NCBI GenBank assembly: GCA_951813085.1
Contig: OX638348.1
Span: 2,117,627-2,181,626 of the forward strand
DNA length: 64,000 nt
DNA from: an uncultured Opitutaceae bacterium
GTDB taxonomy: Bacteria > Verrucomicrobiota > Verrucomicrobiia > Opitutales > Opitutaceae
Direction of reading: 5' to 3'
The notes under the pieces were generated by a model, which was not told where the DNA came from, ran no database searches, and saw only the letters and a list, made by a program, of their open reading frames with translations. Shown here piece by piece: positions 10,931 through 46,061 of this stretch (position 1 is its first letter; each line of letters opens with the position of its first letter). The translations under genes were made by a program, and so were the position numbers.

Positions 10931-13900
10931 CTAGTTACTTCCAAAATCGCCACAGGATACTGCGTCTTCCAATGCAGAACGAAGTGACTCGATCTTCATC
11001 GGCTTGCTGACAAAGCCATCCATACCCGCTTCATTGCATCGGCCCTTGTCCTCCTGGGATACACCCGAGGTCAGGGCTATGATCTTTGGCTGGCGGTCTG
11101 CAGGAAAGTCTTCGCGAATCCTCCGAGTCGCCTCCAATCCATCCATTACAGGCATTTGGACATCCATCAATATGACATCGTAACTCGAACGTCCAAGAGC
11201 ATCCAAAGCTTCCTTCCCATTCGTCGCTGTATCCACTCGGCCATAACCAAGTCGCTTCAGCATATGCATCGCTACCTTCACATTGACGGCATTGTCATCG
11301 GTAATCAGAAGCTTTAGCCCGTCTTCCGACAATACTTGCTCATCTACATCCGACGGATCGCGACGTTTTTCGGCAACGCCTGGCGAGACTTTAACCGGAC
11401 GCGCTGGCTTGCCTGCGATCGCTTTGAATGAAGCCTCCAGCAGCTTGCGCTGCCGCGCAGGTTTCGCGATGCATTGAACTTTGCCACCGCACAATCGGCG
11501 AGCTTCATCAATCCGAATTGTCTGCGGCAGCAAAACAAAGCCCATTTCGGATTCGCTAGCCTGTTCGCTGACTTTTTCCAAAAACGCTTCGCAACCAATC
11601 CCTGGAAGATCGTACCGAATCCAGAGAACATCAAATCCATCAGGATCTGTTTCTATCAATCTGAGCGCCGAATCGGTTGTTGCTACGGCTCTAGAGCGCA
11701 TGCCTGCGCGCAGGGCGATTTCTTCTAACGCAAGGGATACAGGCTCTTTTTCCCCGACAATAAGGACTCGTTTTCCCGCAACATCCTTAATCATTGGATA
11801 CTCCTGACTCGCATTGACATCGAGGGACTCAGGAAAATCGAACCAGAATACGCTTCCTTGGCCTACTTCGCTGTGAGCGCCAATCTCTCCACCCATAAGA
11901 TTGGCAAGGTCTTTGCAGATGGAAAGCCCAAGACCTGTTCCACCAAACTTTCGAGCTGTCGAACTATCCACTTGAGTAAACGGCTGAAACAGTTCCTTTA
12001 ACTTTTCCCTAGGAATCCCAATTCCCGTATCCGAAATTTCAACATTTATGAACCTCTGACCTTCTTTAAGGACCCGTTTCAAGTATATCGACACACTCCC
12101 TGATTCGGTAAATTTTATAGCATTGCCCACCAGGTTCACTACTAGCTGCTTGAAGCGCGTCACATCGCCCACAACATGAACGGCAATACCTGGTTCTTCG
12201 CGATATATCAATTCGATACCCTTCTTGTGAGCCACTTGCGCCATCAGCTCTAAAACGCCTTCGATGCTCTCGCGCAAATCGAATGGAGCGCTTTCTAGCT
12301 GAAACTTGCCAGCTTCTATCTTCGAGCGATCCAGGATGTCGTTGATGATCTTAAGCAGTCCTTCTCCAGATTCCTTGGCCGTGTTCAAGAAGGACTCTTG
12401 ATTCTCGTCTAGCTTAGTATCCGAGAGTAGTGTACACATCCCGAGTATCCCGTTCATGGGAGTTCTCAATTCATGCGACATATTCGCTAGAAAATCCGAC
12501 TTCGCCCGAGTCGCTGCCTTGGCCTCATCGGCCAGTTGAATGGAACGGGTCAGCGAGACCTCCAACTGAGCATTCTTCTCTTTCAAGATCCTGGAATGGT
12601 GCTCCACATCCTTAGTGCGTTCCGCCACTAGCCTACTTAGCTCCAAGTTTCGCTTAATCAGCTTTCGGCTTCTCGCCTTTACGATAGTCCAAACAACGAT
12701 GACGAACAGCGCAACGTAGACCAAGTACGCATAAGCCGTCGCATAGTAAGGTGGAATGATCGAGAATGCGAATGAGTCGATCTCTCCAATCTCGCCAAAT
12801 CCATTTCTCCCGAGAACCTTGAATTCGTAGTTTCCCACCGGCAAATTCGTATACTCCTTATATATCGAATCGCTATACTCGCTCCAACCATCGTTAAGAC
12901 CGTCCAAGCTTACCTGATACCAATTTTGAAAGGAGTCTCAAAATTGAGCAGCGCGAACTCAAACCTCAATGACCGCCTTGAGAATGGAATCTTCAATGGC
13001 TCGCTACCGCCACGATACGACCGCTCGTAGATCGACTCATTTCGGTCTAAATCGAATATACCCGTTATTCTCGTTTCGATGTCGCGAATTTTCGGTGGCT
13101 CGAAATCCAATCGCGTTTTCACAACTCCCGAGCTGTTGGCGATCCAAATAAACCCTTTCGAATCTATAAAAAACGCGGTCGCCCTAAAATCAGAACCCCC
13201 TGCAAGATTCTTCAAGCCCCGAAAATAGTCACCCGCAGGCAAAGGACTCAATTCGCCACTCATCGCATCCTGATTGACCCAAATGACATCGTCGTCGTCC
13301 TGGATCATTATTTGGAAGCTAGACAAGAAGTCATCACTGGGAATCGAAGCCCATCCGTCCAAAGGCGCGAAGCGATCGCTAGATTCATCATATCCAAGTA
13401 GATCGCCACCTTGGGCATACGCTATCAATCGATCTCCCGCGCGGAGAAACCTATAGTCTTCGCCAACTAAGCCTGATTCAGGGCCATAGTACTTGAAATC
13501 TCTATAGTCCGCATTGGCGAAAACGCGCATCACCGATTGGTCAATCAAACTCGCCCATAAGTCGCCATTAGCGCTTATCGTGATGGAACTAACCTGCGCC
13601 GTTCTGGAGCCTAGCAACCGTTCGTGAAGCGCACCCTCTTTAATCCTCTCCAATCCGCGGGCATTCATCGTCAATGCAGATTCGCCATCAATAGCTGTTA
13701 TGAATCTTCTGTCCCCTCCTCCAATTCGATGCGCTTGTCCGTTCTCTAGCAACGCCAGCCCTCGACTCCCTCCTAGCAACAATCCATCTTCAGTGGGAAT
13801 CAGAGTCGGGGTATTGTCGGCATGATAGACGATTTCGAATTTACGATGATCAACTTTCGCAAATTGATTGTATCGATAAACTCCTGACAGAGTCCCAAAG

Positions 13901-33915: not shown

Positions 33916-35115
<1,200 letters not shown>

Positions 35116-35245
35116 TCATGAAATTTTTGGAACGCGCACTATGATAACAATTTAAGCGGGCGCCCAGCCGAATTTTAAGAAACGGCAAATCATTGCCCTG
35201 CGATCGACGAAATTCGATTTCTGAAGCGTATCGCATCGCTATTGG

Positions 35246-36412
35246 CTAATCCCCGTTCACGTATTTCGGGTTTCTCGTCCCCGAATACAATTCGTATTCA
35301 AGCAAGCGACATTCGATGGGGCCATTGTAGAACTCGATCTTGCGCTTGGTCTTTAAGCCCACCCGTTTACCGAGATCACGATTACCAGTGAATACGTACC
35401 CCCAATAGCCCGCGCATTTCTGCTTAAACAGATCCCCGATCTCCTAGTAGGTGGGCGCCAATTTTTCGCGTTCTCCCATTCGATCTCCATATTCGGGATT
35501 GAATATCATGACCCCAGGGGCCTCAGGGATCCGAGTCCGCTTGAAGTCGCATACATCGAACTCGATCAAATGCTCCACTCCAGCAATTTCCGCATTGCGG
35601 AGCGCGGCTTCGATCGCCGCGGGATCTCGGTCAGTGGCTATGATGGGAAATTCGAGTCGATCGCTTCCCTCCCCTTTCAATTCATTTCGGATTCTATCGA
35701 AATCCGTTCGTTGATAGCCCACTAAATGCATGAACGCGAAATTCTCGCGCAACCGTCCAGACGTACGACCTGTGGCCCAGAGGGCTGCTTCGATCGCCAG
35801 CGTGCCACTTCCGCACATGGGATTGACCAATGGCGAACCTCGATCCCATCGCGTCGCCCGCAACACCGAGGCCGCAAGATTCTCGCGCATGGGCGCCTTT
35901 CCCGGGCTCACTCGGTACCCTCGATTGCTCAACGGTACACCAGATGTATCCAAGTATAGGCATACATCGATTTCGTGCCAGTAAAGGAATAGCATCGCCT
36001 TGTCTGAGTCGTTACCCGTATCAGGCCGACGACCATGCTTGTCGCGAATTCGATCTACCATCGCGTCTTTCAAGCGCAAGCCAGCGAACTTGGTATTGCG
36101 AATCGTGTCATTGCGTACGGACGAGCCGATAGATACGTAGCCGTCCGCTGGAATCCATTCCTCCCAAGGCAATTCAATCGCTTTTCGATAGAGCTGATCG
36201 CCATTGCCAGCGTCAAATTGAGCCACCTGCCATAGGACGCGCAACCCAGTCCGCAACTGAAGATTGAGTCGCATGCAATCCTCCATCGAACCTCTCGTGA
36301 ATACGCCTGCTGCGGCTTCCCTCTCAACTGGGAACCCGAGCTCAACGAGCTCGTCGCGAAGATAAGGAGCGCACGCTTTAGGGCAGGTTACGAGGATTGT
36401 GTTTTCTGGCAT
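35246..36412 (-). pseudogene. RlmL-like THUMP RNA methyltransferase with in-frame stop
   Basis: A 388-residue class I SAM-dependent RNA methyltransferase: N-terminal ferredoxin-like plus THUMP region (to about 155), then the UPF0020 methyltransferase fold with PMCGSGTLAIEAAL and motif IV as NPEYG where the family normally has NPPYG. The frame is cut by TAG at 35444-35446 (residue 323) yet continues in the same frame with strongly family-like sequence (EIGDLFKQKCAGYWGYVFTG, then FYNGPIECRLLEYELY) to TAG at 35246. Gln CAG to TAG is the simplest change. The truncated product keeps the SAM-binding core but loses the last ~65 residues. Confidence 0.85.
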
Positions 36413-36591
36413 GGCCGGATTTTTAACTCAATCACGCGGATAAGGAGGTTCTGTTCAAGAAACAACGAACGCTGCCGCGGAAAATTGCCTGCGTTTGCGG
36501 CGTTCGTCAGCGAATCGAGATTACCCGAAGCTATCGCATGAGAGAATATTCGGTCAACTCAAGCGCGCTTGACCAAACGCCAGGAATTAAA

Positions 36592-36617
36592 AAAAGCCTG
36601 CCATAAGGCAGGCTTTT
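36592..36617 (-). terminator. Rho-independent terminator of the cytochrome b562 gene
   Basis: AAAAGCCTGCC-ATAA-GGCAGGCTTTT, a perfect 11-bp stem. Read on the minus strand it is followed by a T7 run; it lies 36 bases beyond the stop of the cytochrome gene. Confidence 0.9.
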
Positions 36618-36652
36618 GAAGTGGTTGTGCGACTTAGGCGCGAATCTAGATC

Positions 36653-37099
36653 CTAGTCGTCCGCAGGCTTATAATTGTCGTGGCCATGCTTGCGAGCATC
36701 GTTGATTTTTCCAACGATCGCTTCCGCGCCGGCATTGTCGCCTTTTTTCAAAGCGGCTTCCAGTTCACCGATCAAAGCAACGGTACGCTTCATACCCTTC
36801 TGGTAACCCGCCATGAATTTCTCCTTGGCAGCGCCTGATTTTTCTTTTGCGAGAATGGGTGTCAGCTCGACCGACTTCTGAGCGGCCTTCTTCACTTTGG
36901 CAACTAGTTCCAAAGTAGACTCGTTCTTGGACGGATCCTTGATTTGGCGGCGAATCGAGCGCCAAGCCTTGTTCATAGCGCTCATTTGGTCCTCTAAGGG
37001 AGTGTGCTCGTGTTCTCCATCTTCGTGGCTGTTAGCTTCCATAATGGGAAGGTAAGAAACGAGCATGGCAAGGGTCAGGATAAGGGATCGTCTTTTCAT
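36653..37099 (-). CDS. cybC: Cytochrome b562-like periplasmic protein
   Basis: A 148-residue exported four-helix bundle. A signal peptide runs to about residue 22 (MEANS), followed by a His/Glu-rich linker (HEDGEHEHTP). The heme ligands of cytochrome b562 are in place: Met in PLEDQMSAMNK of helix 1 and His in ARKHGHDNYK of helix 4. The intervening helices KVKKAAQKSVELTP and LIGELEAALKKGDNAGAEA match the family. Function of b562 proteins is poorly defined; non-covalent heme electron carrier is assumed. A clear terminator follows. Confidence 0.82.
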   Translation of the reverse strand: MKRRSLILTLAMLVSYLPIMEANSHEDGEHEHTPLEDQMSAMNKAWRSIRRQIKDPSKNESTLELVAKVKKAAQKSVELTPILAKEKSGAAKEKFMAGYQKGMKRTVALIGELEAALKKGDNAGAEAIVGKINDARKHGHDNYKPADD

Positions 37100-37222
37100 A
37101 AATGGTATTTTGCTAGATTTACTCTAATAACTTCAGGATTGGACCTTAGGTTACACCCGATTGTCAACGCGGATTACACCGCAAGGCCCATTTGGAAGAG
37201 GATTGTAACCAACAATATGCGG

Positions 37223-38410
37223 TTAACGTGAGGAGACCCCCGAATCTACAAAACGATCCACGATTTTTCGGTATACCCAGTAAAAGGGGCCCAAAATGCA
37301 GTATAGAAACTTCAGCCTCCGAGGAAGCGGGAATCGCTCGTAAAACGATGGCCAGCTAAAGAGATTCACCAAATACCCTAGCTTGTTCCGAAGCCCAATA
37401 GCGCAAAAGAACACGAGAAGAGTCCGGCCCAGTACCTTAGAAGGGCTATCCGGCCCCCGCTTATAATTAACAATCTGAGCGATTGATTGCTTAGCGAGCA
37501 TTCGGCATTTCAAGTTCGAGGCAGGCAGAGAAACGTCACTCTGGGCGTCAAAAAACAATAGGAATCTCAATCGATCTCTAACGCCTTTGGCTCGAGCCAA
37601 GCCCGTTTGCCCAAGGGCCTGTGTTTCAATATTCTTAGCCATCTCGATATCGTACAGCCACTTCAAACGGTGCCAACAATGAGCGGTCCCATGCAAAGTC
37701 AGGTAATCGATCAGATCGACCTCGCCCAATAAAGGAACGGAGCAGCCGCCGATTTGGACAAAGTTTCTCCGGGAATAGAGAACGTCTATCGAATCCGAAT
37801 ACATGAAATCCAAACTGGAAACCCTCCAATGAACCTCCACTTGGCTTCCTAAGCGACAATAGTGCTCATGGTGCGAGAGGCCTTCAAACGCTTCCCCATC
37901 CTCAATTCTCCTATCAAATGCCTCGCCTCCACGCTCGTATCCCAGTCCATTCAAAACCACAGGCACTTTTGGAAAATCAGATCTCAATACCACGAAATCC
38001 AGGTCATTGCAGTGCCGCTTCGCCGCTTCGCCGTAAAGAAACTGGGAGACTGCTGGACCTTTCAGGGTCAGAAAACGAATTTTTTCTGCATCAAATGCCC
38101 GCGTGATCTCTAGCAGCTCTTGCACCTTGCTGAGCTGACGCAGCTGCAGCGATCGGTTCAAATCAGAAAATCTTTGCCAAGTTTCGCTACCAATAGCATC
38201 GGCAACCCCAATTTGTATCAAAGTATCATATACGATTGAGACGACTCGATGCTCAATCACGAGACGCTCAAATTCGCTCCAGTCTATCGCCTCGGTCTCG
38301 ACAAGCTCGCGGCAAGTATCCAAAGCCATCTTGCCAAGGCTAGCGTTGAGAAGCGCGAGCAACAACTTGAATTCAGGCTCGAATCCTGGATTGCTACCGC
38401 GCGCCTTCAA
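37223..38410 (-). CDS. Lasso-cluster nucleotidyltransferase (NTP_transf_5 family)
   Basis: A 395-residue protein of the uncharacterised nucleotidyltransferase family PF14907. The catalytic region is FLTLKGPAVSQFLYG (Lys117-Gly118) followed by CNDLDFVV (Asp136, Asp138, metal-binding). A long helical C-terminus follows, with LHGTAHCWHRLKWLYDI. This family is frequent in lasso-peptide clusters that also carry an HprK-like kinase, where it is thought to modify the peptide further after phosphorylation. The start is TTG, 5 bases after the stop of the PqqD-like gene, with GAGGG upstream as ribosome binding site. Its role here is inferred from context. Confidence 0.85.
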   Translation of the reverse strand: MKARGSNPGFEPEFKLLLALLNASLGKMALDTCRELVETEAIDWSEFERLVIEHRVVSIVYDTLIQIGVADAIGSETWQRFSDLNRSLQLRQLSKVQELLEITRAFDAEKIRFLTLKGPAVSQFLYGEAAKRHCNDLDFVVLRSDFPKVPVVLNGLGYERGGEAFDRRIEDGEAFEGLSHHEHYCRLGSQVEVHWRVSSLDFMYSDSIDVLYSRRNFVQIGGCSVPLLGEVDLIDYLTLHGTAHCWHRLKWLYDIEMAKNIETQALGQTGLARAKGVRDRLRFLLFFDAQSDVSLPASNLKCRMLAKQSIAQIVNYKRGPDSPSKVLGRTLLVFFCAIGLRNKLGYLVNLFSWPSFYERFPLPRRLKFLYCILGPFYWVYRKIVDRFVDSGVSSR

Positions 38411-38415
38411 ATTCT

Positions 38416-38709
38416 CTAGCCCTCTGATGCAAGCACGAATGAACCCGATTCAACAAGGGATTGGCAGAACGCCAATGTTTCCTTTTTGCAGGTCGCTTCA
38501 TCGATTTCGAAACGTCCCATCAATTCCCGGCAGATATCGGCAATTGAAACCGGTTGTTCCGCGATATCCCAAATACTGCTGCCAACTCGGTTAATCCCGT
38601 AGTACTTTCCCAATGCGATATCCAGGAATACCTTATCCTGGTCAATATCCGTCGCCACCAAATCTGCTCGACGGCTCACAATCGAATCCATATCCAATTC
38701 AAGCCTCAT
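38416..38709 (-). CDS. PqqD-like RiPP recognition element (lasso B1)
   Basis: A 97-residue PqqD-family protein, the stand-alone RiPP recognition element that binds the leader peptide and presents it to the B2 protease and the cyclase. Typical features: KVFLDIALGKYYGINRVGSSIWDIAE (strand-strand-helix), the conserved Trp-Asp, and the C-terminal helical part ICRELMGRFEIDEATCKKE. It is the first gene of the short minus-strand arm and diverges from the B2 gene with overlapping promoters. Confidence 0.92.
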   Translation of the reverse strand: MRLELDMDSIVSRRADLVATDIDQDKVFLDIALGKYYGINRVGSSIWDIAEQPVSIADICRELMGRFEIDEATCKKETLAFCQSLVESGSFVLASEG

Positions 38710-38741
38710 CTAAACGGCATGACAATGCCTCAGCCCACTAG

Positions 38742-38769
38742 TTGTCAAGGCTTCTATTCGCTCTATTCT
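38742..38769 (+). promoter_or_regulatory. Predicted promoter of the lasso plus-strand operon
   Basis: TTGTCA (38742-38747), 16-base spacer, TATTCT (38764-38769), ending 46 bases before the B2 start. On the opposite strand TTGACA (complement of 38743-38748) can act as -35 for the PqqD arm, with TGTCAT as a weak -10 (complement of about 38719-38724). The two -35 elements overlap, so polymerases for the two arms would exclude each other. Confidence 0.5.
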
Positions 38770-38815
38770 TCAAGTCTGCAATTCAAGTCAGCCCTATCGC
38801 TAGAAACCAAGCTTC

Positions 38816-39253
38816 TTGGAAACAAACGAAAAAGCAGTTCCAAAGTCCCTCACCGCATCCGAACTCTTCGAATTCGCGCTGGCGTGCGTTCTATTGCCTC
38901 TGAGCGTGATCGGCATCCACCTTCTCCCGTTTCGGCTATTAGCAAAGGCATGCCTACTCAAACCGCTATCGTTGGATCCGCCAATTTATCTTGAGCGCTC
39001 AAACGCCCAGCACCCGGTATCGATAGCAGTTAAAAGAGCCGCCCGAAAACTCCCTGGAAGTTATGTATGCTTGCCTCAAGCTCTAGCAGGAAAGCTATTG
39101 CTTCGAATTCAAGGTAAGGAATCAACTCTCGTCCTCGGGGTCAAAATCGACGAACGCAATGCTATGAATGCACATGCTTGGCTCATCTCCGAAAACTCCG
39201 TCCTGCTTGGAGGAAATCAAGGCGAGTTCAAACCCGTAGCCGCATTCAAGTAA
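38816..39253 (+). CDS. Lasso peptide B2 leader peptidase (transglutaminase-like)
   Basis: A 145-residue protein of the PF13471 transglutaminase-like family, the cysteine protease that removes the lasso leader. Catalytic Cys85 is in YVCLPQALAGKLLLR and His120 in NAHAWLIS; the third residue of the triad is not obvious (Glu126 or Asn134 are candidates). A hydrophobic helix at about 21-42 precedes the domain. The start is TTG, and no ATG is available upstream of the in-frame TAG at 38801. The gene lies 10 bases before the ABC exporter. Confidence 0.9.
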   Translation: METNEKAVPKSLTASELFEFALACVLLPLSVIGIHLLPFRLLAKACLLKPLSLDPPIYLERSNAQHPVSIAVKRAARKLPGSYVCLPQALAGKLLLRIQGKESTLVLGVKIDERNAMNAHAWLISENSVLLGGNQGEFKPVAAFK

Positions 39254-39262
39254 TCTACAAAC

Positions 39263-40963
39263 GTGAAAATCGAGTTGCCTACTGCCTTTGTTAAGTGCCT
39301 GGTTCAAAGAACTCGGGGGCGAGCCCTCCTTTCCGCGCTTTTACATCTAGTTTTGAATGGCATTCAAGGAATCGGGCTCCTGAGCATCCTTCCATTGCTC
39401 TATCTGTCCGGATACGGCTACGGAAAAACAACGGATAGCCCGCTTATCGGCATCGCCCAAGCGATCGAAGATCTGGGATTCTCATTCACTCTATCAAATA
39501 TACTACTCGCATTCACAATGGTCATCGTCGCTGGGTCCGCGCTCCGGCGCTATCAGTCCGTCTTTAACGAACGAATACAGCAAAATTTCATTGGTGACCT
39601 CGGTCTGGATCTCGTACACGCTCTAAACGCAGCCCCATGGTCCCTTCTCGCCAAGTCCAGGCATTCACGCATTACGCAGGCGCTCTCCGACGATCTGAAG
39701 CAAATACACATCGCGACCGTACTCAGTTTCCAACTATTTGGCGGATTCTCTTTGCTAGCAATCAACCTCATCGTCGCCTGCTTCATTTCTATAAAGCTCG
39801 TCATCCCCTCAATACTGGCGATGTCCATTATTTGGGCGCTGCTGCGACCATTCCACAAGAAGAGCAATCTGCTGGGTGAGCGACTCCGAACCGCTCGCGA
39901 ACGATTTTTCGATCTACTCGCGACCAATTTGAGTGGTTTGAAACTTATCCGTATCCACTCCAAGGAATCGCTGCAGAATGACCAATTCACTGAGATTCGC
40001 GACGAAACCGTGGATCAAGCCAATCGATTTCGAAAGTCTCACGCCACCGCATTATGGATCTTCGAATCCGGAGCCGCCATCGGACTCGCCGTGTTCATCT
40101 ACGCATCCATTTTCTGGATGGAATTGCCCACCGCGAGCCTGCTGCTCCTCATCTTCATCTACGCCAGATCGCTTCCGCTCTGCTCGCGAGCTCAACAGTC
40201 TTGGCACGCTATTCTCCACGCCATGCCATCCTTTGCAGCCTACCAGAAAATCTGCCAGGATTTCCAGGCGCCTGACGACGCAATGTCATCCCAGTCGACG
40301 GATATCGAGAATTTCTCATTGGCCCAGTCTATCCGCTTCGAGAACGTTTCGTTTTCCTACGGCAATCGCTTGATCTTCGACGAGTCCACCTTCAACATCG
40401 CGGCGAACAAGACAACGGCGTTGATCGGCGAATCCGGCTCAGGCAAGAGTACGCTCGCCGACCTGATCTCCGGACTGATTTCACCCCAGTCGGGGAAAAT
40501 ATACATCGACGAAAAAGAGCTGACACAGGAGAACGCATCCACCTGGCGACGGCAAATCGCCTACATCCCCCAGGAGAACGTCCTCTTTCACACGACGATT
40601 CGAAATAATTTTCTCTGGTCCAATCTCCATGCATCGGATACTGATATCGAATCCGCTCTCGCCACCGCGAACGCCCAATCCATCGTAAAGAACCTTCCAG
40701 AGGGTCTCGACACAATCGTAGGCGAACGCGGTTCTTTGCTATCTGGCGGCGAGCGTCAGCGAATCGCCCTCGCCAGAGCGCTCGTAGCCAAGCCGAAACT
40801 TCTAATCCTAGACGAAGCCACCAATGCCCTTGACATGGAAAATGAGACCCAAGTCAGAAATGCGATCCAATCGCTACAGGGCGAACTCACGGTCCTCGTC
40901 ATTGCCCATGACTCAAATGTTGGATCCATGGCGGATCACATCTACCGAATCGAGCGCAAATAG
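39263..40963 (+). CDS. Lasso peptide ABC exporter (D protein)
   Basis: A 566-residue single-chain ABC exporter: six membrane helices in the first ~310 residues, then an ATPase domain with Walker A GESGSGKST (about 388-396), Q-loop YIPQENVLF, signature LSGGERQR (about 492-499) and Walker B LLILDEATNALD. In lasso clusters this transporter exports the mature peptide and gives self-immunity. The start is GTG. It follows the B2 gene by 10 bases and precedes the kinase by 42. Confidence 0.93.
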   Translation: MKIELPTAFVKCLVQRTRGRALLSALLHLVLNGIQGIGLLSILPLLYLSGYGYGKTTDSPLIGIAQAIEDLGFSFTLSNILLAFTMVIVAGSALRRYQSVFNERIQQNFIGDLGLDLVHALNAAPWSLLAKSRHSRITQALSDDLKQIHIATVLSFQLFGGFSLLAINLIVACFISIKLVIPSILAMSIIWALLRPFHKKSNLLGERLRTARERFFDLLATNLSGLKLIRIHSKESLQNDQFTEIRDETVDQANRFRKSHATALWIFESGAAIGLAVFIYASIFWMELPTASLLLLIFIYARSLPLCSRAQQSWHAILHAMPSFAAYQKICQDFQAPDDAMSSQSTDIENFSLAQSIRFENVSFSYGNRLIFDESTFNIAANKTTALIGESGSGKSTLADLISGLISPQSGKIYIDEKELTQENASTWRRQIAYIPQENVLFHTTIRNNFLWSNLHASDTDIESALATANAQSIVKNLPEGLDTIVGERGSLLSGGERQRIALARALVAKPKLLILDEATNALDMENETQVRNAIQSLQGELTVLVIAHDSNVGSMADHIYRIERK

Positions 40964-41005
40964 GTTGCGCCCGCCTCAATGGATTGCTAGAAAATCGTCT
41001 CTATC

Positions 41006-41896
41006 GTGAAATATGCTTACCACGCATACGGGCTTTGCATCGAAAGCGCCACGCCGCTTCAAACGCTCTCCCGTTACCATCCACAACTGGGCGACCTACC
41101 GAATATCTCGCTAGTCGAAGGACCTATCGAAACGCAATCGACATCGGCAACGACTGAAGTTCCCGTAGTCTTCAAGGCTTCTACAGGTAAATTGTACGCG
41201 GAGGTTCTTGGGGCCGGTCGCTATGAGGTGACCGCTCGCAATATTCGGATTGAACGGGCAGCAAAATGCGACGAGCCCCTTCTGAACACCTTCCTATATG
41301 GCGTTATCCTGGCAACGAGCACCTACTTCAACAACCGCCTTCCCCTGCATGCAAGCACGATCGAATACAATGGAAGCGCGATTGCTTTCTGCGGGGATTC
41401 GGGGTCAGGAAAGTCTACTACCGCAGCAATTTTCGCAAACGCTGGCCATAAGATGATCACCGACGACGTCCTCGCCCTGGCTCAAGCAGCAGAAGGGGAC
41501 TTCCGCTGCTTCCCAGGACCACCGTTTTCAAAGCTCACAGACGTCAGCATGAAAATCACCCAACAGGAAAAAGAAAATGTAGAGTATTCAATAGGCAAAT
41601 ACCACATTCATTCAAAAAACTGGATCTCCGAATCATTTCATTCGCCTTCTTCAATATTCATTATCGAAATCGATCAAGAAATCGATGGATTCACCATAAC
41701 TCCTCTTTCTGGAATCGAGAAAGTTCAAGCGATATTAAGATACTTGTACCGCAATTACTGGATCGATTCGTTTGGTCTAGCGGACGAGATCAATCGCCAA
41801 GTCATGGCGCTTTCTCCTCAAGTTTCCGTATTCAGGCTTCAAATGCCGAAAGAGAAAGTCATAGCTCCCAATTTACTCATGAACCAGATAACCTAA
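41006..41896 (+). CDS. HprK-like kinase of the lasso cluster
   Basis: A 296-residue kinase of the HPr-kinase-related family. The P-loop is CGDSGSGKSTTA (129-140), preceded by PLHASTIEYNGSAIAF and followed by KMITDDVLAL (149-158) with the paired Asp that binds metal and activates the serine. In paeninodin-type clusters such kinases phosphorylate the C-terminal Ser of the precursor or core; the precursor encoded downstream does end in Ser. The start is GTG. A stand-alone role in PTS control is unlikely: it has no HPr partner and sits inside the lasso operon. Confidence 0.88.
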   Translation: MKYAYHAYGLCIESATPLQTLSRYHPQLGDLPNISLVEGPIETQSTSATTEVPVVFKASTGKLYAEVLGAGRYEVTARNIRIERAAKCDEPLLNTFLYGVILATSTYFNNRLPLHASTIEYNGSAIAFCGDSGSGKSTTAAIFANAGHKMITDDVLALAQAAEGDFRCFPGPPFSKLTDVSMKITQQEKENVEYSIGKYHIHSKNWISESFHSPSSIFIIEIDQEIDGFTITPLSGIEKVQAILRYLYRNYWIDSFGLADEINRQVMALSPQVSVFRLQMPKEKVIAPNLLMNQIT

Positions 41897-41919
41897 CGCC
41901 TAGAACAAGTATCTACTTT

Positions 41920-43824
41920 ATGAGCGCGATTTGCGGAGTTTTCAGTAAGCGATCAGGCCCAGAGGAAAGAGAGGAAGCTATTTCTCGGATGACTGAGAGC
42001 ATGAAGCTTATCGGTCCAGACAGCCTCAATATTTCAAAGTTCGACGGCGTTACCTTGGCTCATCAAGCGCTTTTGGTCACCCCTGAAGAATATTCCAACA
42101 CGCAACCGATCACTCTTTCTGATGAAGGGCTATCAATCGTATTCGACGGACGGATATACAATCGAAACGAACTACTTGCAGCCCTTAAACGCAAACCTCC
42201 CCTCAACTCTCCTGACGCACTGCTAACGCTATTTCTTTACGAACAATTTGGAACTGCGGGATTTTCGAAGATCAATGGAGAATTCGCAGCGTGCATATTC
42301 AATCATCGTAGAAGTGAAATGCTTCTCATTCGAGATCCTATTGGTCTCCGAACCCTGTACTATACAGAAACGATCTACTATTTCGCATTTGCTACCTCTC
42401 CTGATGCTATCGCCACATTGCCCAATTTAGATAGATCATTCGATGCTGAAGGAATCGCCTCCGAGATTCTTCTCACTCAAGATATTCGCCATGGGAAATC
42501 GATTCGCAAGTCGATCTCAAGTGCACCGTCTGCCCATATCGTTCGATACAGCGACCGTGAAATATCCATTGATCGCTACTACCAGTTCTCGAATAGGCTT
42601 GGGACAGGAAACTACTCAGAATCGGAATCGGTTGAAGGCCTTCGCTATCATCTGACTCGTTCCGTAGCGGAACGTTTGCGAGGAATTGCCTGCTCCGGCT
42701 CGACCCTAAGCGGCGGAATCGACTCTTCCGGCGTGTCTTCGATTGCGGCAAAGTACATGGAGTCCCAACAAGCTACGCTTCATTTGCTATCAGCAACTCC
42801 AAGTCGTATATCGAGCGACCTCGCACAAGAAGAAATTGGCCACATGAAAACGGTCGCCAGAGAATTCCCAGAGGCGCCCCACCATATGATCGCGTCCGAC
42901 GAGACAGGTCCGTTTACACACCTCAAACGCCATGTTATGGACGAGGACATTCCACTAGGAGCCTTTCATCACGTACTCGATTCTTTAGCAACAAAGGCCT
43001 CTCAATTAGGAGCTCATACATTGCTATCGGGCATTGGGGGAGACATGATTCCTTCACTTAAAGGACAAGGTCTGTTCCTCAATCAGTTTACCTCATTCGA
43101 CCTATTCAGGAATGGGATACATCTAAAAAACAGCCTCGCACGAAATAGAGGGCTTGGGCGATTTTTACTACGCGAGATCGCTCTCCCAATTCTTCCCGAA
43201 ATTTTTAGTAATCAGGTCAGCAAAGAAAAGCGAATTGCTCAAAGCATAAGGCAATCGATATTAAATAAGGAATTCCTTAGGGAGATTGAGTTCGAAACAA
43301 GACTCAATGATTCAAATGCGATTCGATTTCGAACATTTCGAAACGAACTAACTAAGGCAGCAGCTGTATTGGATTCTGGATATCTTTCCCATGTACCTCA
43401 TCAATGGAACCGTAGATCGGGAACCGAACTTCTCTATCCGCTTATGGATCTCCAATTGATCGACTTCTGCCTAAGTCTACCCGGGCGGCACTTCAACATC
43501 GGGAGCAGCCCTCGCGGACTGTATCGAGAAGCGACGAAAGGGATAATTCCAGATTCCGTCCGAACTCGGACCACGAAGGGCGCATTCATTCCTCAATTCC
43601 ATGCCTCATTTAGAAATGAGAGGACCATGGTAGAGGAGTTACTAAAAGAAATCGGGCCACATCATGAGATCTGGAACTACGCTGACTTAGGGAATTTTAA
43701 CGCCCTTTTGACAAAGGCATTCGATGATGTAAACGACTATCAATTAGGTAGTTGGAATACATCGATACAAACGCATCTATTTCCACCTATAGCTTACGCT
43801 CTATTGCTCTCGATGAAAACGTAA
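41920..43824 (+). CDS. Lasso cyclase (asparagine-synthetase-like, C protein)
   Basis: A 634-residue homologue of asparagine synthetase B that closes the isopeptide ring by adenylating an Asp or Glu side chain. The N-terminal domain is glutaminase-like but the Cys is at position 5 (MSAICGVF), not directly after Met, so glutaminase activity is unlikely, as for lasso cyclases. The synthetase domain has the pyrophosphate loop LSGGIDSSGVSS (Ser264 to Ser269 region) and LLSGIGGDM. Length fits known lasso cyclases. It is followed after 41 bases by the precursor gene. Confidence 0.93.
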   Translation: MSAICGVFSKRSGPEEREEAISRMTESMKLIGPDSLNISKFDGVTLAHQALLVTPEEYSNTQPITLSDEGLSIVFDGRIYNRNELLAALKRKPPLNSPDALLTLFLYEQFGTAGFSKINGEFAACIFNHRRSEMLLIRDPIGLRTLYYTETIYYFAFATSPDAIATLPNLDRSFDAEGIASEILLTQDIRHGKSIRKSISSAPSAHIVRYSDREISIDRYYQFSNRLGTGNYSESESVEGLRYHLTRSVAERLRGIACSGSTLSGGIDSSGVSSIAAKYMESQQATLHLLSATPSRISSDLAQEEIGHMKTVAREFPEAPHHMIASDETGPFTHLKRHVMDEDIPLGAFHHVLDSLATKASQLGAHTLLSGIGGDMIPSLKGQGLFLNQFTSFDLFRNGIHLKNSLARNRGLGRFLLREIALPILPEIFSNQVSKEKRIAQSIRQSILNKEFLREIEFETRLNDSNAIRFRTFRNELTKAAAVLDSGYLSHVPHQWNRRSGTELLYPLMDLQLIDFCLSLPGRHFNIGSSPRGLYREATKGIIPDSVRTRTTKGAFIPQFHASFRNERTMVEELLKEIGPHHEIWNYADLGNFNALLTKAFDDVNDYQLGSWNTSIQTHLFPPIAYALLLSMKT

Positions 43825-43865
43825 TTTTCTTGCCAATACGGCGATATCATGGAAAAAGCGATAGC

Positions 43866-43979
43866 ATGGAAAAACAGCACTGGGAATCTCCCAAATCGAC
43901 CGAACTTGATGTGAGATCCACAGAGAACGACATAGGGATCGGTGGAGATTGCGCAGGGGGAGGCTTCGGCGCTAGCTAA
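43866..43979 (+). CDS. Predicted lasso peptide precursor (A gene)
   Basis: A 37-residue ORF directly after the cyclase gene. The leader starts MEKQHWESPKSTELDVRSTE and shows the landmarks of paeninodin-type leaders: Trp6, Pro9, Leu14-Asp15-Val16 and Thr19 at the penultimate position. The predicted core after Glu20 is NDIGIGGDCAGGGFGAS, with Asp8 as ring-closing acid to the Asn1 amine (8-residue ring), a Gly-rich 9-residue tail with one Cys and Phe14, and a C-terminal Ser that could be phosphorylated by the kinase. An upstream in-frame start (43752) would overlap the cyclase and is less likely. The ribosome binding site is weak (GGAAAAAG 8 bases upstream). Confidence 0.8.
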   Translation: MEKQHWESPKSTELDVRSTENDIGIGGDCAGGGFGAS

Positions 43980-44012
43980 TTCCCAAAAAGGGCAAATATA
44001 GCAACTGAAAGA

Positions 44013-44036
44013 GCCTCAAGAGAAATCTCTTGAGGC
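44013..44036. terminator. Terminator hairpin between lasso operon and VPDSG-CTERM gene
   Basis: GCCTCAAGAG-AAAT-CTCTTGAGGC, a perfect 10-bp stem between converging genes. A T-rich stretch follows only on the minus strand (TCTTTC), so it best serves the VPDSG-CTERM gene, but it also bounds the lasso operon. Confidence 0.75.
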
Positions 44037-44071
44037 CCATTCCCGTTGCGTAGAAAGTATTGTTATTTTGA

Positions 44072-44704
44072 CTAGCGGTTGATGAACTTTCGTCTCAACC
44101 CAACGAGAGTCACTAGGGCGATTCCGAGGAGGTCGGCACTTGCTCCCGCGTCTGGAACCGATTGGGTGTTGACTGCCAACGATGCCGCTTGAAGGGGGGC
44201 AGGCTCAGCGCCGTCTCCCGCTTCGACGTACAAGCTCCAATTGAGCTTACCGGTTTCAACGAGATTCATGAGCAGCGATCCGGTTATACTCGGCCCAGCA
44301 AAATAAAAATCGTAAACGAATGAACCGGCCATGAGACCGCCAATCGCCGAATAATCGCTCACGCCATTGGGTTGGTCAAATTCACCGAATTTCAAATCGA
44401 TCAATTGACCACCAACTACAAAGAGTACTTCAACTTCGGTAATCGTCTCTGTCAACGGATCGTAGCCCATATTGTCGAAGTTATCGAGCGGTGTGTTATC
44501 GGAGGGCGAATTATCCGAAGACACGTCAAGAACACCCGTGAGTGGCTCGACGCTATCACCATAGACAGGAATCATGAAAGGGTCGTCTGCCCAGTATTCC
44601 TGGTCTACATACTTCGCAGTTTTATACAGATATACCGCCATGGCAGATTGGCTTATAATCGCCCCAACTACCACGAGTCCTAGAATTTTTGTGAATGTTT
44701 TCAT
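44072..44704 (-). CDS. VPDSG-CTERM-type sorted surface protein
   Basis: A 210-residue exported protein. Signal peptide 1 to about 23 (SAMA), a beta-rich acidic middle part, and a C-terminal tripartite sorting signal: VPDAGAS, a hydrophobic segment (LLGIALVTLVG) and a basic end (LRRKFINR). This is a variant of the VPDSG-CTERM signal (PEP-CTERM class) found in Verrucomicrobiota and processed by an exosortase system, not seen in this window. The function of the mature part is unknown. It converges with the lasso operon. Confidence 0.85.
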   Translation of the reverse strand: MKTFTKILGLVVVGAIISQSAMAVYLYKTAKYVDQEYWADDPFMIPVYGDSVEPLTGVLDVSSDNSPSDNTPLDNFDNMGYDPLTETITEVEVLFVVGGQLIDLKFGEFDQPNGVSDYSAIGGLMAGSFVYDFYFAGPSITGSLLMNLVETGKLNWSLYVEAGDGAEPAPLQAASLAVNTQSVPDAGASADLLGIALVTLVGLRRKFINR

Positions 44705-44954
44705 ACGGCAAAAAGGTTAAATTTTTCTCCCTGTTTTTGTTTTCTGAGCCTCTAATATCCCATTAATTTTGTCCTCCGACAAGGGTTCCACCGTCAAAAC
44801 CAGCTCTACCAGCAAATCCCCTATTAGGCGTCTCAGGGCAGACAGAGGAGGTCCCCTAGGGGCTCGTAGCATCCTCACTCTATGGAGGGTCGAAACGCCC
44901 CGATAGCTCGTTAAAAAATAGTCAGGAAACCGCCAAAAATCGGCTTCAATCGAT
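44705..44954. other. 250-bp non-coding interval
   Basis: No credible ORF. It contains the palindrome CCCCTAGGGG (near 44852-44862) of unknown meaning, and must hold the promoter of the VPDSG-CTERM gene at its left end. Confidence 0.4.
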
Positions 44955-45350
44955 CTATCGCGACTGGATGCGGATTTTACTCAGTCCGTTCAGGCGGCAG
45001 GCATCCATCACCTCGGTGACGGTTTGCAGGGGCGTCGTATTGTGCGCCTTCAGGAGCACAGGGATATCATTGGATATCTCGGATAGCCGCGAAAGCACTG
45101 CTTGCAGCTCTGCCATAGGCACTTGCTGGTTTTCCAAGAAAATCCTCCCCTCTTTGTCCACTCCAATCAAAATTCGGTCCGGAAAATCATTTCTCCCTGC
45201 GGACTCAATCTTGGGCAAAGTCAGATTCAAGGTAGTCATCTCCTTGAATTGCATGCTGACGAGGAAAAAGAATATCAATATCGTCAATACATCCATCAAA
45301 GGGATGATATTGATATTCGCTTTGCTTCGCCTTCGAGCAAGCAAGCTCAT
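44955..45350 (-). CDS. ExbD/TolR-family biopolymer transport protein
   Basis: A 131-residue inner-membrane protein with the family architecture: basic N-terminus, one membrane helix containing the proton-relay Asp (PLMDVLTILIFFFLV), and a periplasmic domain ending with VTEVMDACRLNGLSKIRI. It works with ExbB/TolQ to couple the proton motive force to TonB-like or Tol-like partners. Its start overlaps the ExbB stop by 4 bases. No TonB or TolA gene is adjacent. Confidence 0.93.
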   Translation of the reverse strand: MSLLARRRSKANINIIPLMDVLTILIFFFLVSMQFKEMTTLNLTLPKIESAGRNDFPDRILIGVDKEGRIFLENQQVPMAELQAVLSRLSEISNDIPVLLKAHNTTPLQTVTEVMDACRLNGLSKIRIQSR

Positions 45351-45904
45351 GCGTCCTTGGATCCCATCTGCTCGAGCAATGATTCGAACTCAACCGCATA
45401 GGTTTCCACACGACGCTGCAAGTAGCTGTTTGCGACCAGGCAGGGAATGGCGACTGCCAAACCGATCACCGTAGTCGTCAGCGCCAACGCGATTCCTTGA
45501 GTAAAGGCCGAGGGATCAGGCATGCCGGTTTCCATGGAGACGTTCCCGAACACTTGAACCAAACCCGTTACCGTCCCAAGCAATCCTAGCAAAGGAGCAG
45601 CCCCAATGATGACCTCCAAAAATACCAGCCCCCGCTCCATTCGGTTTACCTCGAGCCGCGCATACGCCTTGACCGCTCCATCATCTTCAGAGTGGCGCTT
45701 CCAGTAGGCGACGACGCGTCCAAGCGACGAACGTCCACCTCCATCGGTCGGGCTTCCCTCGACCACGCCTTCTACCAAGTGCGGCGGTATGATCGCCGCT
45801 CGCCGCAAGGCGAACATCCTCTCGAATATGATGAAGCATCCCACAACGGAACACAGCATGAGAGGGTATACGAATACGCCTGCTCCTTTTAGTATCTCTA
45901 GCAT
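45347..45904 (-). CDS. MotA/TolQ/ExbB proton channel family protein
   Basis: A 185-residue inner-membrane channel subunit: N-terminal helix (GVFVYPLMLCSVVGCFIIFERMFALRR), then the two conserved helices GLVFLEVIIGAAPLLGLLGTVTGLVQVF and ALTTTVIGLAVAIPCLVANSYL. It forms the motor with the ExbD protein encoded immediately downstream. Length is on the short side but complete. Confidence 0.93.
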   Translation of the reverse strand: MLEILKGAGVFVYPLMLCSVVGCFIIFERMFALRRAAIIPPHLVEGVVEGSPTDGGGRSSLGRVVAYWKRHSEDDGAVKAYARLEVNRMERGLVFLEVIIGAAPLLGLLGTVTGLVQVFGNVSMETGMPDPSAFTQGIALALTTTVIGLAVAIPCLVANSYLQRRVETYAVEFESLLEQMGSKDA

Positions 45905-46061
45905 GACTTCAATTCTGGTTCGGGGTAGAACATGAAACGATTAAGGGACCCATATTATCAAATCTTGTTCAAATGCAAGATCCGCCTCTCATGGGGCTCG
46001 CCTCGAGTTGACCCGATATGGGAGAGAGCGCCTTAACACAACGTCTCGCCTTTGATAATCG

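Follow-up and report, generated by a model that had tools for sequence, protein, structure and literature searches.

A complete lasso-peptide gene cluster with a kinase, a nucleotidyltransferase and a predicted Asn1 core in an uncultured Opitutaceae bacterium

Does an uncultured Opitutaceae bacterium carry a complete pathway for a lasso peptide, and what would its mature product look like? This question is raised by seven genes at positions 37223-43979 of the window, the 64,000-nucleotide stretch of DNA analysed here (contig OX638348.1, assembly GCA_951813085.1). A preliminary description, made from the letters of the DNA, had read them as a complete lasso-peptide cluster with B1, B2, C, D, an HprK-like kinase (K), an NTP_transf_5 nucleotidyltransferase (N) and a precursor (A). 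Profile searches with Pfam and NCBIfam found all seven genes in place, and every assignment was right. The genes form two divergent arms: N and B1 lie on the minus strand, whereas the plus strand carries a tightly packed B2-D-K-C-A, its genes spaced by 9 (B2/D), 42 (D/K), 23 (K/C) and 41 (C/A) bases. All seven reading frames are open, and the cluster is complete and probably working. We hold with high confidence that it is an acquired, intact-looking lasso cassette whose product would be a phosphorylated lasso peptide. The cluster is new as a sequence within what could be searched; its gene content is ordinary and its Asn1 core is uncommon. Two points go beyond the preliminary description, namely this core, which is the oddest part of the cluster, and the absence of the cluster from sister genomes.

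B1 (38416-38709, minus strand) encodes a PqqD-like recognition element of ribosomally synthesized and post-translationally modified peptides, as is needed in a lasso cluster. It scores 50.6 bits with Pfam PqqD (cut-off 23.4) and 75.4 bits with the NCBIfam model lasso_PqqD_Bac (NF033536), slightly below the cut-off of 80. Its best PDB matches are solved lasso proteins, 9x90 (E 3.6e-13) and TbiB1 5v1u (E 9.2e-7). B2 (38816-39253, plus strand) encodes a transglutaminase-like cysteine protease, identified as a lasso-family leader peptidase by its score with lasso_biosyn_B2 (NF033537; 65.5 bits, cut-off 33) and by Cys85 and His120, which are invariant in all 17 aligned sequences. C (41920-43824, plus strand) encodes the asparagine-synthetase-like macrolactam cyclase. 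It reaches 92.2 bits with Asn_synthase (cut-off 21), and its best NCBIfam match is the lasso cyclase NF033535 (249.8 bits, below the cut-off of 525), followed by the asparagine synthase TIGR01536 (172.9). The N-terminus of C, MSAICG, is without Cys2, a residue kept in all three asparagine-synthase-like proteins examined from the genus. A true asparagine synthase was ruled out because of the missing Cys2 and the model scores. D (39263-40963, plus strand) encodes an ATP-binding cassette exporter in which the permease is fused to the ATPase (ABC_membrane 39.6 and ABC_tran 125.2 bits, both above cut-off), and no peptidase domain is found among its listed Pfam and NCBIfam matches. The preliminary description had tied its reading to the assignment of B1, B2 and C to lasso families by profiles. 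This held fully for B2, whereas B1 and C score best on lasso models but stay under their cut-offs.

The precursor A (43866-43979, plus strand) is a 37-residue peptide with an ATG start, which consists of a predicted leader, MEKQHWESPKSTELDVRSTE, and a predicted core, NDIGIGGDCAGGGFGAS. It has a WxxP motif in the leader, Thr at position -2, Asp8 and a C-terminal Ser17, the terminal residue typical of paeninodin-type phosphorylated lasso peptides. Because of the Thr at -2 and an acid at 7-9, only Asn1/Asp8 is possible as the ring pair, and this spacing is the evidence that points to Asn as residue 1. Positions 34001-46000 were scanned with a filter for an aromatic-xxP leader, Thr, Ile or Val at -2, and Asp or Glu at 7-9; A and one other frame, antisense inside K, matched. 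Laxer patterns added four frames, all of which lie within another gene or frame or on the strand opposite it, and one of these scans passed over A, taking an earlier start that overlaps C. In mononucleotide-shuffled sequence the filter matches at a rate of 40 per Mb, which corresponds to about 0.5 in 12 kb. Requiring Thr at -2 and a C-terminal Ser as well lowers this to 0.70 per Mb, or about 0.008 in 12 kb, the Ser criterion having been added after the frame had been seen.

The precursor might have been misread, in that the core starts elsewhere (for example at Asp2, with a ring of seven residues and Thr at -3) or that another small frame is the substrate. This is improbable. The rarity of Asn1, for which one experimental case was found (in the available text of PMC12670498), speaks for such a misreading, but neither the strict nor the laxer patterns gave another credible precursor frame in 34001-46000, and Asn1 alone fits both the Thr at -2 and the acid at 7-9. 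Moreover, a related precursor family (loci L079, L081, L082 and L084 in our numbering) carries N, A, A and S at the residue-1 position when aligned by eye, ungapped to Asp8; Asn at position 1 in L079 is supported because its relatives carry Ala, Ala and Ser there.

Asn1 had been predicted earlier, and metanodin, in October 2025, gave its first observation, with mass spectrometry showing that a cyclase is able to use it; the second-closest relative of the metanodin cluster has Gln at residue 1 (available text of PMC12670498). No experimental Asn1 precedent besides metanodin was found in the open-licence literature. Metanodin, from a soil metagenome (Steroidobacterales-like), resembles the window in Asn1 and in Thr at -2. 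It has a nine-residue ring (nine linear forms) and the tail NIQGDHGLNI, and the word kinase is absent from the available text of PMC12670498, whereas the window has a predicted eight-residue ring, a C-terminal Ser, K and N.

In the proposed phospho-lasso pathway, B1 would bind the WxxP part of the leader and present the precursor, K would phosphorylate the C-terminal Ser17, and B2 would cleave after Thr(-2)-Glu(-1). C would adenylate Asp8 and join it to the Asn1 amino group, giving an eight-residue ring, through which the nine-residue tail CAGGGFGAS would thread; Phe14 and/or the modified Ser17 are the only obvious stoppers. N would then act on the phosphate, probably adding a sugar as reported for pseudomycoidin, and D would export the product, whose role, as a guess, may be competition with other bacteria. 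As read from the precursor, the Asn1-Asp8 ring and the phosphorylation of Ser17 by K are most likely, and a sugar cap is perhaps added through N. Calculated with a free Cys, the [M+H]+ of the predicted product is 1449.606; it would rise to 1529.573 (+79.966) through K and perhaps to 1691.625 through N. The product may instead be a branched-cyclic (lariat) peptide that never threads or does not stay threaded, given its small, Gly-rich tail with Phe14 as the sole bulky residue, and threading is unreadable from sequence. We consider this unlikely, as the core genes belong to lasso families and a phosphate or sugar on the C-terminus could provide a stopper.

K (41006-41896, plus strand) encodes an HprK-like precursor kinase that scores 25.7 of the required 33.3 bits in Pfam and is also under the cut-offs in NCBIfam. 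Its His115, Lys136 and Asp153 are invariant, and Asp154 is present in at least 90% of the 14 aligned sequences; the His-Lys-Asp-Asp motif is described as essential in lasso kinases (available text of PMC9266682). Ser17 is the likely target of K because it is the sole hydroxyl residue in the core. N (37223-38410, minus strand) encodes an NTP_transf_5 nucleotidyltransferase-like tailoring enzyme of the PsmN/BsfN type (PF14907, 156.6 bits, cut-off 31.2). Its active site appears intact by comparison with the family, not with PsmN itself: K117, G118, R132, D136 and D138 (the DxD motif), H240 and other residues are invariant in all 11 aligned sequences. The predicted fold of N (mean predicted local distance difference test score 74.7) has only weak PDB matches, the best at E 2.7e-3 and none at E 0.001. 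These are mainly nucleotidyltransferases such as ANT(2''), with FKRP, which we take to be a sugar-phosphate transferase, at E 0.17 or worse, and are suggestive only.

The association of a kinase gene with the end of the core was examined in 44 loci, which comprise the window, two sets of 20 and 17 loci, and six of the nine loci found with a B2 alignment (three were duplicates). Most of them are from the same phylum because the search was made there. From 25 of these loci, 30 candidate precursors were kept by eye, a hand-curated set whose members are not all independent; frames that lay within other genes or on the strand opposite them, or that did not look like lasso precursors, were dropped, and 19 loci gave no precursor, in part because contigs end. 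One of the two laxer patterns required a C-terminal Ser, and the rows added there (L076 and L085b) fit the other pattern. A kinase was called strong at 190 bits or more with a model built from these loci; a kinase alignment proved too diverse to serve as a scanning query. Of the 19 precursors accompanied by a strong kinase gene in their locus, 17 end in Ser or Thr, compared with 3 of the other 11 (Fisher p 0.001); for Ser alone the counts are 14 of 19 and 2 of 11 (p 0.007). These p-values are optimistic, since the selection was made by eye and some rows are related to one another. The three exceptions without a strong kinase are L029 and L032, which end in Ser, and L080, which ends in Thr. K and N occur together in 13 of the 44 loci by strict scores and in 21 by loose scores.

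Several observations weigh against the reading of an intact phospho-lasso cassette. Three genes score under curated cut-offs (B1 and C in NCBIfam, K in Pfam), and the cyclase tree leaves C unplaced, on a long branch and in no starred set. The precursor A has no Pfam or NCBIfam match at E ≤ 1. Its WxxP motif lies at -15/-12, two residues closer to the cut than the Bradymonadales YxxPxL motif (-17/-14/-12), and Ser occupies the Leu position of that motif. A stable threaded form is not assured because the core is very Gly-rich and has one bulky tail residue. Despite a kinase gene, the precursor of L033b ends in Lys and that of L072 in Gln. The presence of a kinase alone leaves the site unfixed because BsfK phosphorylates Ser3 and not the C-terminus (available text of PMC10368454).

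A decaying or silent acquired cluster is also unlikely. In its favour, the cassette is absent from sister genomes, four of the seven genes have GTG or TTG starts as drawn, and the promoter signal is not above chance, but seven open frames and conserved active-site residues argue against decay. B1 and B2 diverge from an intergenic stretch of 106 bases (38710-38815), which likely holds the promoters of both arms, judging from gene spacing. It contains a single weak promoter-like match (38742-38769), and the region as a whole has 4 such matches, fewer than the shuffled mean of 7.8. Terminator-like matches are about as frequent as the shuffled mean, and the strongest of them, at 44011-44038, is a stem of 12 pairs. 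Between 37100 and 45000, short repeats, both direct and inverted, are only weak matches, and none was seen bracketing the cassette.

The acquisition of the cassette was assessed in the host's genus, where a full-length C was found only in the window's own genome among 11 genomes. Partial C matches occur in two others (29% and 33% identity), and the one examined, L068, keeps Cys2. Six of the ten other genus genomes could be compared at the matching site; the other four were excluded because their flanks are incomplete or on separate contigs. The cassette is missing in all six. The flanking cytochrome b562 and exbD-like genes are 132 to 325 bases apart in five of them (homology end to start) and about 1.9 kb apart in the sixth, with a VPDSG-CTERM-like protein between. 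The lasso region gave nothing by blastn in these six genomes, and tblastn of N, B1, B2, D, K and C gave only three short C matches (93-94 residues, 31-34% identity), located at a leuD-like gene beyond exbB and outside the interval. The cassette is most simply an insertion because it is absent from all six sisters, the alternative being that each of them lost it. The G+C content of the cassette is 0.490, compared with 0.512 and 0.525 in the flanks, and is within the range of the window's 6.8 kb stretches.

Lasso gene sets have a thin but wide spread in the phylum. At E ≤ 0.001, the B2 model has matches in 15 of 387 genomes sampled at the level of the phylum, 13 of 384 at that of the class, 14 of 372 for the order and 9 of 150 for the family, and it exceeds the cut-off in 13, 12, 13 and 9 genomes, respectively; these samples share members, and every count includes the genome of the window itself. 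C alone, used as a query against genome contigs, found no relative. On plasmids, tblastn gave 287 records, all below 60% identity; the 20 matches listed are mostly annotated asparagine synthases and include two lasso-annotated Priestia plasmids at 22-23%. The closest long alignment of C is with the L044 cyclase (28% identity over 579 columns), and the best identity in the tree alignment is 26%.

L044, the same stretch as L094, is identical in sequence to part of a contig of Pelagicoccus mobilis KCTC 13126. P. mobilis (Verrucomicrobiota, Opitutia) belongs to the same family as the host genome. In this named and deposited strain, a predicted Asn1 precursor (12320-12493) with the core NTGGGGGDTSFQS lies beside B1, B2, C and a kinase gene. 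It resembles the window in Asn1-Asp8, the C-terminal Ser and the kinase; its core has 13 residues and no N was found within the 20 kb examined, whereas the window has a 17-residue core and N. Residue 1 among the 30 curated precursors is Gly in nine, Ala in five, Asn in four, Ser and Lys in three each, Thr and Ile in two each, and Leu and Glu in one each, with an uncertain core boundary in L077 and in the three Lys1 rows. The four predicted Asn1 precursors are those of the window, L044, L029 and L079; L029 has no kinase in the stretch examined. It can be tentatively proposed that Verrucomicrobiota hold a loosely defined group of lasso peptides with an Asn1 ring and a C-terminal phosphate (and sugar cap), from unrelated precursor families, including that of P. 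mobilis, in which a phospho-sugar cap would be the stopper for small tails. This is possible but doubtful. The combination of an Asn1 ring with a C-terminal phosphate, with or without a sugar cap, is unreported in the open-licence papers that could be searched.

Among known systems, the paeninodin cluster (pade) of Paenibacillus dendritiformis shares the kinase and the C-terminal Ser, as far as its available description goes, and the window differs from it in having a nucleotidyltransferase. Paeninodin reportedly has an Ala1 core, and its leader spacing appears to be that of the window. The pseudomycoidin cluster (psm) of Bacillus pseudomycoides, likened here by description and not by sequence, has both kinase and nucleotidyltransferase genes; the window differs in its phylum, in the divergent arm of N and B1, and in its Asn1 core. 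The C-terminal Ser of pseudomycoidin is phosphorylated and then hexosylated (available text of PMC9266682 and PMC8498205). Heterologous work placed hexoses on the phospho-Ser, and the true chemistry of the enzyme was left open in the available text of that 2022 review (PMC9266682). Clusters with a kinase and a nucleotidyltransferase had been regarded as best known from Firmicutes; this did not prove to be a speciality of that phylum, as both genes occur in Bradymonas sediminis (Bradymonadales) and in the 13 loci mentioned above. The bsf cluster of this non-Firmicutes species shares the seven functions A, B1, B2, C, D, K and N, with Ile at -2, Gly1 and a phosphorylated Ser3, whereas the window has Thr at -2, Asn1 and a C-terminal Ser (available text of PMC10368454).

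The preliminary description knew of no characterised lasso peptide from Verrucomicrobiota, and none was found in the open-licence literature. The table of PMC4289311 gives no lasso peptide for two anaerobic Verrucomicrobia. The available text of PMC8692599 names terpenes, arylpolyenes, polyketide synthases, nonribosomal peptide synthetases and ladderanes as the main Verrucomicrobial types, and its discussion mentions new lassopeptide clusters also in underexplored phyla, in the context of Acidobacteria and Verrucomicrobia. The available parts of PMC7298704 report lassopeptide clusters newly found in Latescibacteria and Armatimonadetes and stress ladderanes for Verrucomicrobia, and those of PMC9177762 place lassopeptides in Firmicutes only. 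Predicted Verrucomicrobial clusters may well already be in wider surveys, such as the RODEO survey. If the phospho-lasso reading is true, it extends lasso chemistry to a phylum for which no characterised member was found and adds another example of a ring that begins with asparagine. The system would also be suited to probing the real chemistry of nucleotidyltransferase-like N enzymes.

Among the other loci, L081 and L084, from one genus, each have two adjacent lasso-type gene sets with their own cyclase and precursor (Lys1-like and Ala1/Ser1). The precursors of L090 (10492-10632) and L092 (10485-10625), for which Ile1-Asp8 rings are predicted, end in Thr and are encoded beside a kinase gene. 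The record of L090 is titled as a Klebsiella pneumoniae metagenome bin, a label that is probably wrong because its cyclase is almost identical to that of L092 (Verrucomicrobia bacterium) and the precursors are alike.

In the window, a VPDSG-CTERM-like protein gene (44072-44704), slightly below the family cut-offs, adjoins the cluster, and a 39% identical relative lies at the same site in the sister L102, without lasso genes. The stretch from the rlmL-like gene to cytochrome b562 (window 36412-36653; L098-L103) varies in gene content among the sisters as well, so gene gain and loss in this neighbourhood are not confined to a single point. Further upstream, a pyridoxal-phosphate-dependent enzyme, by eye of the Cys/Met-metabolism type (33916-35021), is spread over two frames that overlap (33916-34443 and 34395-35021), as though a frameshift or an error in sequencing had divided it.

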